A stretch of DNA of 47,387 nucleotides from the NCBI GenBank assembly GCA_021324255.1, contig JAJPJL010000107.1:1-47387 (forward strand), written 5' to 3'. The notes beneath the pieces were generated by a model, which was given only the letters and a program-made list of their open reading frames with translations, ran no database searches and was not told where the DNA came from. The position numbers and the translations under genes are program-made. Shown in pieces: positions 7,003 through 45,994 of the stretch (positions within the stretch are counted from its first letter, which is position 1; the number at the start of each line of letters is the position of its first letter). Origin of the DNA: Bacillota bacterium (GTDB taxonomy: Bacteria; Sysuimicrobiota; Sysuimicrobiia; Sysuimicrobiales; Segetimicrobiaceae).

Positions 7003-7476
7003 CTACCGGCGGTCCGCGGCGACCGCCGCCGGCTGGTACGTCCCGGGAACGGTCCGCATGCTGATGGCTAGGCGGTTCCAGCCGTTGATCGCAACGATCG
7101 CAAGCGTCAAGTCCACCAGTTCCTTCTCCGAAAAGAACCGGCGAGCGTCCTCGTACACGTCGTCGGGCGCGTGGCGGTCGGCGATCAGGGTCACCGCCTC
7201 GGTCCAGGCGAGGGCCGCCCGTTCGCGCGGACTGAAGAACGGCGTCTCCCGCCACGCGGAGAGCGCGTAGAGCCGTTGCTCATGTTCACCCCGGGCGCGT
7301 GCGTCCTTGGTGTGCATGTCGATGCAGTAGGCGCATCCGTTCAACTGCGACGCCCTCGTCCTGATGAGATCGAGCAGCGCGTGGTCGAGCCCGCTCTGCC
7401 GCACATATCCCTCCAGGCCCAGCATCGCCTGCACCGCGCCCGGCGCAATCTTCCCGTAGTCGATCCGCGATTGCAT
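7003..7476 (-). CDS. AhpD-like alkylhydroperoxidase / carboxymuconolactone decarboxylase family protein
   Basis: 157 residues. The thiol centre NGCAYCIDMHTKDA (CxxC with His four residues on) is the AhpD-core signature, and EKELVDLTLAIVAINGWNRL is the usual C-terminal helix. Members reduce peroxides or act as thiol-disulfide redox proteins in the cytoplasm. Start at 7476 follows GAGGAGGGG. It is regulated from 7520-7561, one of the best operator/-10 pairs in the window, in line with a role in oxidative or nitrosative stress. It faces away from a second family member at 7886-8410, which has TGA in place of the second cysteine codon. A further fragment of this family survives near 39010-39100. 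Confidence 0.88.
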   Translation of the reverse strand: MQSRIDYGKIAPGAVQAMLGLEGYVRQSGLDHALLDLIRTRASQLNGCAYCIDMHTKDARARGEHEQRLYALSAWRETPFFSPRERAALAWTEAVTLIADRHAPDDVYEDARRFFSEKELVDLTLAIVAINGWNRLAISMRTVPGTYQPAAVAADRR

Positions 7477-7519
7477 TCCGTCCCCTCCTCGTTCTTCGTG
7501 CCTGCTTCGCGTCACTTCC

Positions 7520-7561
7520 ACGGTAGCGCGTCCGCAGTATGCGGTCTTTGAGGTAGCGCAA
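7520..7561 (-). promoter_or_regulatory. Crp/Fnr-type operator with -10 box, ahpD-like promoter
   Basis: TTGCG-CTAC-CTCAA followed by AGACCG on the minus strand (7561-7548), 22 nt, then TACCGT at 7525-7520. The -10 and the next two bases (TACCGTGG) match the cupin/hemerythrin promoter at 37947-37988. Confidence 0.75.
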
Positions 7562-7773
7562 CCACGATCGGCGCGAGAGGCGCCGCGGGGCGTCGTGGAT
7601 CGTGTGGTGCGGGTGCGGCCGCCTCGAATCGAAACACGTCACGTGAGGCGCCGAGATGCCATCCGGCCGGCCCCGAAATCCCGGTTCATCGTTGACCCCG
7701 TGTTGCGGGCGGCTCTACTGAGAGATCCACCTGTCCAACTTCTAGCCTCGGTGCGGCGCCGATCCCACCGGTG

Positions 7774-7787
7774 TTCGGATACCGCAA
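7774..7787 (+). promoter_or_regulatory. Weak operator candidate above the Sec-type CMD gene
   Basis: TTCGG-ATAC-CGCAA followed by CGACCG. The right half-site and flank match the other sites, the left half has two mismatches, and no convincing -10 lies 22 nt downstream. Confidence 0.25.
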
Positions 7788-7885
7788 CGACCGACGGGAC
7801 AGGAAGGCGACTCAACGCCGCGGAACGAGCTGTGCTGCAGGCGCTGCGCGACCTTCGGTTAAGCGCGCCCGAGGATAGACAACGC

Positions 7886-8410
7886 ATGCGTGTTCAACCT
7901 TTGGAATCCGATCATGCCCCGGCTGCCGTCAAAGAGGTCTACGCGGACCTCGAGCGGCGGCACGGCCGGGTGTCCACGTTCTACAAGATGCTGGCCTACA
8001 AGCCGGCCGTGCTCAAAGCTTGCCTGGAACTCGAGTCGGCGGTCATGGTCGAGGGCGCACTTCCGGACCGGCTCAAGCAACTCGCCTACTTGCGGACCTC
8101 GCTTCTGAACGGCTGCGCTCGCTGAGCGCGGGCCCATGCTGCGCAGGCTGCACGGCGCGGATTCACGGAGGCCCAGATCGCGGCGCTCAAAGAGCCGGAG
8201 GGTGCCCACTCCGAGATCTTCACCCAGGAGGAGCACGCGGTGCTCCGCTTTACGGACTTGTTGACAAGCTACCCGGGCAATCTCGAGCCGACCGACCTTG
8301 ACGCGCTGGGCACGTTCTTCTCGCCGGAACAGATCGTTGAACTCGCGGCCACCATCGCGACCGCAAACTGGACGAACCGCATCAACGAAGGACTACAAAC
8401 CCCCAAGTAG
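7886..8410 (+). CDS. CMD/AhpD-family protein with in-frame TGA at the redox cysteine (selenoprotein candidate)
   Basis: Reading from ATG 7886 to TAG 8408-8410 gives 174 codons with a single internal TGA at 8123-8125 (codon 80). Frame is kept on both sides: upstream LKQLAYLRTSLLNGCAR, downstream ARAHAAQAARRGFTEAQIAA and a normal C-terminus (ELAATIATANWTNRINEG). The TGA falls at the second cysteine of the CxxC...H motif: NGCAR-U-ARAH aligns without gaps to NGCAYCIDMH of the neighbour at 7003-7476. CxxU variants are known in the AhpD-like selenoprotein group. After the TGA a small hairpin can be drawn with loop GCAGGCT starting 17 nt downstream and closed by CTGC/GCA(C)G, but pairing is modest. 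The alternative is a Cys-to-stop mutation, since other genes here do carry nonsense codons. Confidence 0.6.
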
Positions 8411-39667: not shown

Positions 39668-41189
39668 TCACGGCACCCGCTCCGCCTGATGCTGGACTTC
39701 CGGATGCCACAGCGGCAACAGCATGTCCACGACGCGGCGATACCGGCGGTAGACGTCGTCGTATGCCCGGCTCGCCGCGGGATTAGGCGTCCGACGTTCC
39801 GGGTAGGTGAGCAGGGCGTGCACGCTGCCGAGGTCTGGCAGCATCTTGACCGCGACGGCCGCCATCACCGCCGCACCGTACGCCGACGCTTCGTCAGTGC
39901 TCGGCAGCCATGTTTCCGTGCCGAAGATGTCCGCAATGAGCGCCCTGAACCCGGGCGCATGGGTCAGACCGCCCGACAAGAGGAGCGCAGACGGCTTCCC
40001 GATAAGGTCGGCCATGATGTCGCCTACGGTCCGCAGGGCCAAGACAATGCTTTCCAGCCCTGCGCGCAGCAAATGACGCCGATCATGAGAGAGGTCGAGG
40101 CCGACAAAGGCGCCGCGGAGGTCGCCGTACCAGTACGGGGCGCGCTCCCCGGACAGGAACGGGAGGAGGGTGAGCCCGTTCGCGCCCTCCCCCACCTCCG
40201 CCGCGAGCGACACCGCCGCGTCGAACCGGCGCTCGATCGGGACCTCCGGGAGCAACAGCGCGCACAGCCAGTCGAACACCCCCCCGGCGGAACTGGTCGG
40301 GCCACCGACGAGGCAGCGCGTGTCGTCGAACACGTAACAGAACGTCCGGCCCGCGTGATCGAACATCGGCACGTCGGCCACCGCCCGGACGGCACCGCTC
40401 GTCCCGAGCGTCAGCGCGGTGGCGCCGTGGTCGATCGCCCCGACCCCGAGATTGGCCAGCGCGCCGTCGCTGGAACACAGGACGAGGGCGGCGTCGGCCT
40501 CGAGGCCCAGCGACCGGGCCACGCCCGAGCGAATCTCACGAAGCGTCGTCGACGGCACCGCCGGAGAGACGGGAGGCGTCGACGCCGGCGAGCGCCAGGG
40601 CTTCCTCGTCCCACCGCCTCGCCTGAAGATCGAACAGGCCCGTCGCCGACGCGATGCCGTGGTCGATGCACCACCGGCCCGTCCACCGGAACACGAGCAG
40701 CTCCTTCAGCGAGACGAAGCGCCGGGCCCGCGTGAACGTGTCGGGCATCTCGGTCGCGAGCCAGCGAAGTTTGCAGAGCGGGAGCATCGGGTGCATGGGC
40801 GCCCCCGTCCGCGCGTACAGCCGGGCGGCGGTGCCGTCGTCGTGCCAGGCCTGCGCGATCGCCGCGGCCCGCCGGTCCATCCAGGTCAGGAACGGCCCGA
40901 TGGGTTCGCCCTGCTCGTCCATCGGGACGAGCCCGTGCATCGCGCTGCTGAATCCGATCACGGCGACCTCACCACCCCGAAGGGTCGCGTCATGGATCGC
41001 GCGTGCGGTCGCGCGGGTCGCCGCCAGGTACACGGCGTTCGCATCCTGCTCCACGTACCCGGGACGCGGGGAGGTCACGCCGTAGCGCTCCGATGCCTCG
41101 GCGACGACGCGGCCATCGACGGCGCACGCCACCGCCTTCGCCGACGTCGTGCCGAGATCGACGCCGAGCGAGACCGGTTGCCCGCTCAC
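39668..41189 (-). pseudogene. FGGY-family carbohydrate kinase, frameshifted
   Basis: Sugar kinase of the xylulose/gluconate kinase group, which phosphorylates a pentose or aldonate with ATP. The N-terminal half (LGVDLGTTSAKAVACAVDGR, FSSAMHGLVPMDEQGEPIGP, TWMDRRAAAIAQ) and C-terminal half (LTLGTSGAVRAV, LPFLSGERAPYWYGDLRGAF, LLLSGGLTHAPGFRALIADI) are both complete but in different frames, meeting near 40575 within DASRLS / PSTTLREI. Length is 3n+1. Start GTG 41189 after GGAG. Repaired length about 506 residues, normal for the family. Next to a phosphoketolase, so a xylulose or gluconate kinase feeding that enzyme is likely. No clear operator upstream; 41190-41540 shows nothing else. Confidence 0.78.
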
Positions 41190-41540
41190 GTTCCAGGCTC
41201 CGGGATCGGCTCGATGCGGCCCAGCAGGAACACGTAGCACAGTCTGTTTGCGAACGACCTGATCCGCAGACGTTCCCAGGCTACCCTACACCAGAAGCGC
41301 ATGTGCGGGGCGCGCCGACGCGGCGGATCGCGCGACGTCGTTCGCAGCCGCTGTGGCAAGCGCCCCGTGCGGGCCGCGTCGGGCCGCGTCTAGAGAACCC
41401 ATTGCTTGATCACCTGCCGGCGGATGGTCCCGCCTTGACCACTCGGCTGGCCGTCACACGACTCGCCACTATGGCTCCACTCAGGTCACCGCGCGCGGAC
41501 GACATGCCGGCCTGAGCGCGGCGAGCGTGACCGCCCGGAG

Positions 41541-43986
41541 CTAGGCATCAGCCCAGGTCCACTTCGCGATCTCCGGCGGGTCCTCGAGCTGTTCGCGCGC
41601 GTACGCCTCCGCGTTGTCGATGCACCGGCGGCACTCGGCGATCAGCGCCTCGGCGCGGCCGCCGAGCCGCGTCGTACGGCGCAGCGCCTCCGCGCAGAGG
41701 TGGTAGCGGCTCATCCCGTTGAGCGAGACCATCTGAAACGGGGTCGTGGTCGTCCCCTGCTCCATGAACCCGCGGACGTGGAGCCGCTCCGTGTCCGGGC
41801 GGCCATGCATGACCTCGTGGATGGCACGCTGGTAGCCGTGAAAGGCGAAGACGACGGGCCGGTCGAGCGTGAACAGCACAGCGAAGTCGTCGTCCGACAA
41901 CCCGTGTGGGTGGACGCTCGGCGGGAACAGCGCCATCAGGTCCACCACGTTGACGACCCGGACGCGCAATTCCGGGGCCCGCCGCCGCAGCCACCACGCC
42001 GCGGCCACGGTCTCCAAGGTCGGGGCGTCCCCGCACGCGGCGAGGACAACGTCGGGCTCGCGGCCCTCGTCGTTGCTCGCCCACGCCCAGGCGGATGCGC
42101 CGCGCCGGCAGTGCTCGATCGCGGCCGGCAGATCGAGCCACTGCAGCTGCGGCTGCTTGTCGATCACGATCAGGTTCACGTAGTTGCGGCTGCGCAGGCA
42201 GTGGTCGGCGACGGACAGGAGGCAGTTCGCGTCCGGCGGCAGGTAGATCCGGGCCACGGTGCCGCGCTTGGACAGCACGACATCGATCAACCCCGGCCCC
42301 TGGTGGCTGAACCCGTTGTGGTCCTGCCGCCAGCAGGTGGACGTGAGCAGGATGTTGAGCGACGCGATCGGCGCCCGTCAGGGCAGCTTGGCCGTGCCTT
42401 CGAGCCACTTGGTGTGCTGCACGGTCATCGAGGCGGACACCATCGCGAACGCCTCGTAGGTGGCGAACAGGCCGTGCCGGCCGGTCAAGAGGTACCCTTC
42501 CAGCCAGCCCTGGCAGAGGTGCTCGCTCAGCACCTCCATGACGCGCCCGTCCGCGGAGACGTGGTCGTCGATCGCGAGCGTGGGCCCGACGAAGCAGCGG
42601 TTCTCCACCTCGAACACGTCCCCGAGGCGGTTGGAGTGGGTCTCGTCGGGACAGAACAGCCGGAAGTTCCGCCGGTCCGTGGTCCGCGCGTACACGTCGC
42701 GCAGCAGCGCGCCGAGGCACCGCGTGGATTCCCGGTGCTCGACGGCGGGACGTGCCACCTCGACGGCGTAATCCCGGAAGTCCGGCAGGTCGAGCGGCTC
42801 GAGCAGCCGGCCGCCGTTGGCGTGCGGATTGGCCCCCATGCGGCGGTCTCCACGCGGCGGGAGCGCCGCGAGATCGGGAGCCGGCGCGCCATCGCGGCCG
42901 AACAACTCCTCCGGCTTGTACCCGCGCAGCCACGCCTCGAGCATCGCAAGTTGCTCGGGCCGCGTCCGTACGTCCGGCAAGGGCACCTGATGCGCGCGGA
43001 ACGTCCCCTCGACGGGGAGGCCGTCGAGTTCCGTCGGGCCGGTCCAGCCCTTCGGGGTGCGCAGCACGATCGCCGGCCACCGGGGACGTCCGATGACGCC
43101 CCGCACGCGCGCCGCAGCCTGGATCGCGCGTATCTCGGCGTAGCACGTCTCCAGCGCCGCGGCGAACGCCGCGTGCATTTCGCCCGGGTCGTCGCCCGCG
43201 ACCAGGTGCACTTCGTAACCGTGTCCCTCGATCACGGCGCGCACGTCGCCGTCGCCGCGGCGGCCGAGTACGGTGGGCCCGCCGATCTTGTAACCGTTGA
43301 GGTGCAGGATCGGCAGCACCGCGCCGTCGCGAGCGGGATTGAGAAAATTGACCCCCTGCCACGACCCGGCGCACGGGCCGGTCTCCGCCTCACCGTCGCC
43401 CACGACGGCGGCGACGACCAGGTCGGGGTTGTCGAACGCCGCGCCGAACGCGTGGATCAGCACGTAGCCCAGTTCGCCGCCCTCGTGGATCGAGCCGGGC
43501 GTCGGCACGCTGACGTGACTCGGGATGCCGCCGGGCGTCGAGAACTGCCGGAATAGGCGCCGCAGGCCCTCCTCGGCGCGGGGCACGTCAGGATAGACTT
43601 CGGAGTAGGTGCCCTCGAGATAAACGTTGGCCACCACCGCCGGCCCGCCGTGCCCGGGGGCCGGCCAGGAAGATCATGTCCACGTCGTGCGCCACGATCA
43701 GCCGGTTGAGGTGGACATAAATGAAGTTCAGGCCGGGCGAGGTGCCCCAGTGCCCGAGCAGGCGCGGCTTGATGTGCTCGGGGCGCAGCGGTTCGCGCAG
43801 CAGCGGGTTGTCGCGCAGGTAGATCTGTCCGACCGTCAGATAGTTGGCGGCGCGCCAGTACCGGTCGATCCGCTCCAGCAGGTCGGCCGAGAACGCTGCC
43901 CCGCCTGGGGCGGCCTCCACCCGGGGCTCTCGTGGCGGCGCGGCGCCGCGCACGGTGCTCGAGATCCTGGCGTCAAAGTGATACAT
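41541..43986 (-). pseudogene. xfp: Xylulose-5-phosphate/fructose-6-phosphate phosphoketolase with one frameshift and one internal TGA
   Basis: Thiamine diphosphate enzyme that splits sugar phosphates to acetyl phosphate. Full family length (about 814 residues). Blocks: [20 protein letters not shown], then after a shift [69 protein letters not shown] and a C-terminal WTWADA. Frameshift: five Cs in place of four near 43655, within [12 protein letters not shown]. Nonsense: TGA at 42378-42380 in KLP-stop-RAPIASLN, where Trp is expected. Start 43986 after GGGAGGG. The rest is well conserved, so decay is recent or the lesions are sequence errors. Preceded by a weak operator at 44015-44056. Confidence 0.85.
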
Positions 43987-44014
43987 GAGGCGTCCCTCCC
44001 GAGCGCACGACCTG

Positions 44015-44056
44015 GCACGTGTGCCGGACGATCACGCGGTCTTTGTCCGCCTTGAC
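44015..44056 (-). promoter_or_regulatory. Degenerate operator upstream of the phosphoketolase
   Basis: Minus strand GTCAA-GGCG-GACAA followed by AGACCGCGTGA, the same 14-base run CAAAGACCGCGTGA as the site at 45582-45595. The left half-site is poor and the hexamer 22 nt on (ACGTGC) is not a good -10. Confidence 0.4.
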
Positions 44057-44137: not shown

Positions 44138-45508
44138 TCACGACGGACGCGCCTTGCTCGCCGCCGCCTTCACCCCTTCCGACAGCGTCGGATGAATATA
44201 CACCACATCTCGCAGAGGCGCCGCGGATCCGGTCTGCATCATCAGCACGGCCTGGGGCAGCAGATCGGCGCCCATGGGCGCCAGCAGGTGCATCCCGAGG
44301 AGCCGATCTGTGGCGGCATCGGTCACGACCTTGACGAACCCACGCCCTTCGCCCATCGCCCGGGCTCGACTGATCGCGCGGACGGGGTGCTTGCCAACTT
44401 TCACGCGGTGCCCTCGCGCCTCGGCTTCCTCGGCCGTCCACCCGATGCTGGCGACCTCAGGGTCCGTGAACACGGCCCGCGGAATGCGGAAGGTATCATA
44501 CGTGAGGTGCGCATTCGTCAGGGCGTTCCGTGCGGCCAACCGACCGGTGTAGACGGAGAAGTGTTGATGTTGCATCCGGCCGATCACATCGCCGATCGCC
44601 CACACGTTCGGCGCCGTCGTGCGCAGTGTCTCGTCCACGCTCACCCCGTGTTCCACATCGCCCTCGATCCCGGCGGCATCGAGCCGCAGTCGCCCGAGCT
44701 CGTGAGGCCGGCGCCCCGCGGCGACCAGGATCCGCTCGGTGTCGAATCGCCGAGCTTGCCCGTCAACCGTGGCGACGACGGTGAGCCCCGACGCGGTACG
44801 CTCCACGCGCGTCGGCACCGCGTTGGTGTGGATCGTCACTCCTTCCTCTTGCAGCAGTTCCGCGACCTCCGTGGAGATCTCGGGGTCCTCCCGGGGCAGC
44901 AGGCGGTCCCGCCGCTGGAGAATGACGACGGCGACGCCGAACCGGCGAAAGATCTGCCCGAACTCCACTCCTTCCGGCCCGCCGCCGATGATCACGAGCG
45001 AGGCGGGCAGCGTGTCCATGTCCATGACCGTCTCGTTCGTCAGGCAGTCCACCGCGTCGAGCCCGTCGAGCTTCGGCACCCGTGGCCGGACGCCGGAGGC
45101 CAGAATGATCCGCTCGCTCTCGACCACCCCACCGTTCACGGCGAGCCGGTGCACGTCGAGGAACTCCGCCCAGCCGTGCACGAGCGTCAGGCCCGGGTGC
45201 TGTTCGATGCCGCGCATCAGTCCGCCGACAATCGCCCCGACGACCTCGTTCTTCCGCGCCCGGATGCGCGGCCAGTCCGCCTCGATCTTGGAGGTGCGAA
45301 ATCCGAACTCGGCGCCGCGCCGCGCAGTATGAATCGCCTTCGCAGACCGTACCAGGGTCTTCGTGGGGATGCACCCCACATTGGCTCACGTGCCGCCGAC
45401 CTTGTTCCCCTCGATTAAAGCGACGCGCGCTCCAAGCTCGACCGCCTGCATCGCCGCGTTGAAGCCGCCCAATCCGGCACCCACCACGGCGAGATCGAAG
45501 TGTTCCAT
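44138..45508 (-). CDS. Dihydrolipoamide dehydrogenase/MerA-type flavoprotein with in-frame TGA at the first redox cysteine (selenoprotein candidate)
   Basis: Reading from ATG 45508 to 44138 gives 456 codons with one internal TGA at 45386-45388 (codon 41). The N-terminus is a textbook FAD site (LAVVGAGLGGFNAAMQAVEL, GARVALIEGNKVGGT), then U, then ANVGCIPTKT. In the family this is GGTCxNxGCxPxK, so TGA replaces the first cysteine of the active-site disulfide. The rest is intact: NAD site LVIIGGGPEGVEFGQIFRRF, second FAD motif NVWAIGDVIG, and the C-terminal catalytic pair in IHPTLSEGVK. No C-terminal Cys pair of mercuric reductase. Just after the TGA, GTGGGG/CCCCAC can pair around loop TGCAT, though these bases also encode conserved residues. 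If TGA is read as stop, only a GTG restart without FAD site remains. Function: pyridine-nucleotide disulfide oxidoreductase, substrate unknown. Confidence 0.65.
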
Positions 45509-45703: not shown

Positions 45704-45994
45704 TCAACGGAAGCCGTACGTCGCGACCAACTCTTCCTTGCTCATGTGGTAATACGCGGCGTTCATTTCGATGTGGGTCTTCCACTGGTCGGGCACCCCG
45801 GCCTCCGGGAAGATCGCGGAGACGGGACATACCGACTCGCAGGCGCCGCAATCGATGCACTCCTCGGGATTGATGTACAGTTTGGTCTCCTCTTGTTCCT
45901 CGTCCACCTTCGGATGGATGCAATCGACCGGACATACCTCCACGCAGGAGCGGTCCTTTACGTTGATACACGGCTCCGTGATGACGTAGGCCAT
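45704..45994 (-). CDS. fdxA: Seven-iron ferredoxin ([3Fe-4S][4Fe-4S])
   Basis: 96 residues. N-terminal CINVKDRSCVEVCPVDCI carries the spaced cysteines of a [3Fe-4S] plus shared site; EECIDCGACESVCPVSAI is the [4Fe-4S] motif. The tail (WKTHIEMNAAYYHMSKEELV) matches the 7-Fe ferredoxins of actinobacteria and Thermus. Cytoplasmic one-electron carrier. Start 45994 after GAGGT. A possible operator lies 94 bases upstream (46088-46101). Candidate partner of the FAD oxidoreductase at 31255-32439. Confidence 0.9.
   Translation of the reverse strand: MAYVITEPCINVKDRSCVEVCPVDCIHPKVDEEQEETKLYINPEECIDCGACESVCPVSAIFPEAGVPDQWKTHIEMNAAYYHMSKEELVATYGFR

Follow-up and report, generated by a model that had tools for sequence, protein, structure and literature searches.

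We describe a gene for an FAD/NAD(P)H disulfide oxidoreductase in which an in-frame UGA, codon 41, is almost certainly read as selenocysteine (Sec) at the position of the first redox cysteine. It lies in a window of 47,387 nucleotides, i.e., the whole stretch of DNA analyzed. The best overall explanation, which we regard as likely, is a Sec41 enzyme whose UGA would be decoded by SelB and tRNA-Sec with the aid of a SECIS hairpin. The Sec reading, already proposed in an initial annotation of the window, is supported because the TGA is shared with four other loci, the Sec machinery is complete and synonymous sites downstream of the codon are constrained.

The minus-strand frame runs from an ATG (45508–45506) to a TGA (44140–44138) and encodes 456 residues, with codon 41 (45388–45386) as its sole internal stop (Table 1). 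The Pfam domains Pyr_redox_2 and Pyr_redox_dim together span its whole length. As the initial annotation had stated, the TGA falls on the first redox cysteine. It reads VGGT-U-ANVGCIPTK in context, is the first Cys of a CxxxxC motif and aligns with the first Cys of this motif in the closest solved chains, the mercuric reductase 5x1y and the lipoamide dehydrogenases 2eq7 and 2eq6. From what is known of glutathione reductase and lipoamide dehydrogenase, we take Sec41 to replace the interchange thiol, which contacts the substrate, and Cys46 to be the flavin-proximal charge-transfer thiol. The earlier description of the Sec as flavin-proximal hence fits the redox pair but not the replaced residue, as the flavin-proximal Cys46 is kept and is invariant in an alignment of the five TGA loci.

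Table 1. Features of the predicted Sec41 flavoenzyme locus. Positions refer to the window.
Feature	Position	Strand	Evidence or remark
Predicted selenoprotein flavoenzyme, coding sequence	44138..45508	−	Translation, 456 aa with Sec41; Pfam domains
In-frame UGA, predicted Sec41, at first (interchange) redox Cys	45386..45388	−	TGA also in L014, L015, L040 and L046
Cys46 (TGC), retained, presumed flavin-proximal charge-transfer Cys	45371..45373	−	Alignment to MerA and lipoamide dehydrogenase chains
HPTLSE motif, His439/Glu444, acid-base dyad	44177..44194	−	Same motif at the aligned position in dihydrolipoamide dehydrogenase 2eq6
Candidate bacterial SECIS core AGACCCUGGUACGGUCU, GGU loop 32 nt after UGA	45344..45360	−	One C.C mismatch, at 45349, in the window copy
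Hairpin of the initial annotation, GUGGGG-UGCAU-CCCCAC	45363..45379	−	Overlap with the VGCIPT codons; loop at 12 nt from the UGA
Ferredoxin, 4Fe-4S dicluster domains, upstream neighbor; putative link to flavoenzyme	45704..45994	−	Pfam Fer4 families

The fold is settled because the protein is 30–40% identical to many solved enzymes. It has the features of a class I FAD/NAD(P)-disulfide oxidoreductase, i.e., FAD/NAD(P) and dimerization domains, a two-residue redox site and a His-Glu dyad, with a redox pair that is U/C and not C/C. The best NCBIfam models were TIGR01350 (lipoamide dehydrogenase; 395.7 and 383.9 bits against a curated cut-off of 408.8) and TIGR02053 (MerA; 382.1 and 374.9 bits against 454.45). 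The flavoenzyme is therefore a superfamily member that passes neither the lipoamide dehydrogenase nor the MerA equivalog. We rejected the role of housekeeping lipoamide dehydrogenase because of the score below the cut-off and because the genome contains other homologues, at least two of which (40% and 36% identical) have no internal stop.

A disulfide reductase is the probable function, favored because the His-Glu dyad is kept and the C-terminal Cys pair of MerA is missing, the C-terminus (...KAAASKARPS) containing no Cys. A true selenoprotein that reduces mercury or another soft metal instead of disulfides is unlikely, yet has several observations on its side: the top PDB match is the mercuric reductase 5x1y, the TIGR02053 score reaches 382 bits and the top plasmid matches are annotated merA. 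Moreover, the G041 gene is preceded by a MerR-type regulator that adjoins a CcdA-like membrane protein with a fused HMA domain (L160, 1433–2527 (−); here and below, CcdA-like is a reading of the sequence, for which Pfam gave no match). Against a metal substrate, the score stays below the MerA cut-off, the C-terminal Cys pair is missing, the dyad is absent from the aligned MerA and no such metal genes were seen adjoining the flavoenzyme at the other loci.

We carried out a six-frame search of 100 genomes for homologues of the flavoenzyme. Full-length homologues were found in G005 (L014, 68% identical) and G036 (L015, about 61–62%), and a contig-end fragment in G041 (L040, about 63–64%). Each contained one internal TGA, which in all three fell on the first redox Cys codon. 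A second scan, of an independent genome collection and with patterns that left out the Sec codon, yielded L046 (JACQGX010000080.1, labelled Chloroflexi; about 52–53% identical), again with the TGA. The homologue search suggested in the initial annotation thus returned the same codon in four further loci. The remaining 79 kept matches were at most 40% identical and had TGC (57) or TGT (22) at the site, and no Cys homologue above 50% identity was found in either search. G003 and G042 contained further fragments from which the N-terminus is absent. A search in the phylum of L046, covering 400 genomes, gave only the genome of L046 itself, and a plasmid search gave no relative of at least 60% identity.

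The five TGA loci are 52–73% identical among themselves, and the relatives of the window gene belong to other genera, other families and one differently labelled phylum, a recurrence well beyond what chance would give. We thus observe, in several species, an in-frame UGA aligned with the conserved Cys of homologues, as expected of a selenoprotein. A tree of 92 proteins placed the four full-length Sec proteins in one clade (SH-aLRT 100) amid 88 Cys rows; as they are monophyletic among Cys enzymes, this is consistent with a single change from Cys to Sec. Along the frame, pN/pS values of 0.32–0.64 indicate purifying selection.

The host of the window has SelA, SelB, SelD and tRNA-Sec(UCA). The initial annotation had named the absence of Sec genes as grounds for giving up the reading, and all of them were present: selA (526.8 bits), selB (321 bits) and tRNA-Sec (74.2 bits, anticodon TCA) lie inside 5 kb on one contig (C83), and selD has an in-frame TGA of its own (Sec-type selD). 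Also, the formate dehydrogenase alpha subunit of this genome has a TGA at its U-H site, and downstream of it lies a hairpin whose loop reads GGUCU. In the phylum, selA was found in 34 of 43 genomes. Each of the four other host genomes has a tRNA-Sec above 70 bits with anticodon TCA, including G036 (77% complete), where selA was not found, and G100, where it was not found above the cut-off; we attribute these missing genes to incomplete assemblies, without proof.

Loops of bacterial SECIS elements lie 16–37 nt from the UGA (PMC13188914). The hairpin noted in the initial annotation exists and, as stated there, overlaps conserved codons, but it is probably not the SECIS core: its loop lies outside this range and the codons it covers are dictated by the VGCIPT residues. 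Synonymous sites in this hairpin are also conserved, so that it could belong to a larger element. The likely SECIS is instead a second hairpin, AGACCCU-GGU-AGGGUCU with CCCU-GGU-AGGG at its center, whose loop is GGU or GGC. Its position and the GG in the loop are conserved. SECIS prediction, which had been proposed as a check, gave a divided result: the published rules (PMC13188914) hold for three of the five loci (L014, L015 and L040), L046 is borderline, with an energy of −7.0 that misses the bound, and the window copy, weakened by its mismatch, falls outside the strict rules. In L046, stem bases are altered on both sides (GCGCU-GGU-AGCGU). Rfam gave no match across the window.

Synonymous codons agreed in 75% of pairs over the 16 codons that follow the UGA, compared with 49% elsewhere (permutation p = 0.0001; shuffle p-values assume independence and are rough for related sequences). 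At the hairpin loop, four of five loci use the rare Val codon GTA. Equal conservation was seen in one other stretch of the gene, at the end of the L040 fragment (window starts about 137 to 144 codons downstream), and the constraint test alone is therefore not conclusive.

Other frames of the window contain irregular stops as well. A phosphoketolase gene (XFP, 41541–44031 (−)) is frameshifted near 43600, has a TGA (42380–42378) at an expected Trp and is either a damaged gene or affected by assembly errors. An FGGY carbohydrate kinase (39668–41285 (−)) is split between two frames, and a membrane-protein frame has a TGA at 2632–2630 (−) that resembles a Trp position (GLLFW*PVIG). The initial annotation had also counted a second TGA at a redox cysteine in the window. 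This is probably the one at 8123–8125 (+), in a frame of about 7463–8410, where it takes the place of the second Cys in a CMD/AhpD-like protein (NGCAR-U-ARAH, PF02627); this CxxU protein is a selenoprotein of an already described kind.

Some window UGA codons at expected Trp sites could point to a selenium-free reading of codon 41, in which leaky readthrough or a suppressor tRNA would insert Cys or Trp. We consider this very improbable, as TGA is an ordinary stop for window genes, the codon falls exactly on the redox Cys, tRNA-Sec(UCA), SelA, SelB and SelD are present and synonymous constraint follows directly downstream of the UGA. A lone TGA would warrant suspicion because the window is not error-free (frameshift and TGA in the phosphoketolase, split kinase), but the chance that the TGA arose from a Cys codon by sequencing error or pseudogene mutation is negligible given the identical codon in five divergent loci, which refutes an error at the level of the family, the purifying selection along the frame and the complete Sec machinery.

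A 2026 review lists 119 prokaryotic selenoprotein families (PMC13188914). This table has no Sec at the CxxxxC site in the group of lipoamide dehydrogenase, glutathione reductase and MerA, in agreement with the earlier statement that the enzyme is not a standard selenoprotein class. The Sec motifs in the table include UGxP, in a CoA-disulfide reductase, UxxU, in a metal-binding 'putative mercuric reductase', and HxxU, in a type III sulfide:quinone reductase (PMC13188914). Of these, the CoA-disulfide reductase (TIGR03385) is likewise a Sec-containing FAD/NAD(P) disulfide-type oxidoreductase but belongs to another subfamily, with UGxP where the Sec41 enzyme has UxxxxC. The 'putative mercuric reductase' (NF041115) resembles it in name only, having two Sec in the UxxU motif of a protein listed as metal-binding and not a CxxxxC flavin site. 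The Ndh-type flavoenzyme of deep-Sep is also distinct (PMC12013277).

Dihydrolipoyl dehydrogenase (TIGR01350) shares the fold, the FAD and NAD motifs, the CxxxxC site and the HPTLSE dyad with the Sec41 enzyme, which differs from it by having Sec, not Cys, as the first redox residue and by its score under the cut-off. MerA (TIGR02053) is alike in fold and redox motif, with 5x1y as the closest PDB sequence; in contrast to MerA, the Sec41 enzyme has neither the C-terminal Cys pair nor an N-terminal HMA domain, and it has the His-Glu dyad. Mammalian thioredoxin reductase belongs to the same flavoprotein superfamily and also uses selenium in catalysis. It keeps both N-terminal redox Cys and carries its Sec in a C-terminal tail, whereas the Sec41 enzyme has Sec in the flavin-site pair and no such tail. 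The openly readable literature combining selenocysteine with these enzyme names gave nothing closer. The families of Haft and Tolstoy (2025), from their work on selenoprotein neighborhoods, are reportedly contained in the review table. We therefore call the Sec41 enzyme unreported in the sense that it was not found in the literature searched.

Gene neighborhoods differ between the loci. In the window, the flavoenzyme gene lies between a ferredoxin and the damaged phosphoketolase. In G036 (L159), it is followed by an AhpC/TSA-type redoxin with the motif ADW-U-PYC (TGA at L159:7326–7328 (−)), and genes for a TlpA-like protein and a CcdA-like membrane protein are nearby. At L046, a redoxin with ADW-U-GFC (TGA at L046:4769–4771; ADWUxxC in both) and a CMD protein are encoded upstream, and at L162 TlpA-like and CcdA-like genes come after the flavoenzyme gene. 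A deiodinase-like UPYC protein (L161, 4187–4189) is found about 2.5 kb from the flavoenzyme fragment of G003. Relatives of the Sec redoxin with TGA at the same place occur in several more genomes of the phylum. The Sec redoxin (E < 1e-90) was present in 4 of 6 flavoenzyme genomes compared with 3 of 37 others of the phylum, a co-occurrence that is suggestive only. At the window and G005 loci, no thiol redoxin gene is directly adjacent to the flavoenzyme gene, and the G036-type Sec redoxin was not found in either genome.

Because redoxin, TlpA and CcdA-type genes adjoin the flavoenzyme gene in several genomes, we favor as substrate a low-molecular-weight disulfide or a thioredoxin-fold partner, such as the Sec AhpC/TSA redoxin or proteins of TlpA/CcdA type, although any particular partner is doubtful. 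In the proposed mechanism, SelB and tRNA-Sec(UCA) would insert Sec at UGA41, aided by the SECIS hairpin starting about 25 nt downstream. NAD(P)H would reduce FAD, which would hand electrons to Cys46 of a Sec41–Cys46 selenenylsulfide. The freed Sec41 selenolate, as the interchange residue facing the substrate, would then attack the substrate disulfide, assisted by the His439–Glu444 dyad of the partner subunit.

As a more tentative proposal, the enzyme may represent an undescribed family with a Sec interchange residue, a glutathione-reductase-like enzyme that would feed Sec redoxins and form with them a selenium-based reductase/redoxin chain in uncultured bacteria. The family has probably been missed in databases because such genes are prone to being split or truncated in automated annotation. 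If true, our reading would place Sec directly in the redox-active pair of a much-studied flavoenzyme superfamily. With many Cys counterparts available for comparison, this natural Sec enzyme would moreover allow direct tests of what selenium adds in rate, reversibility, resistance to over-oxidation or substrate range.
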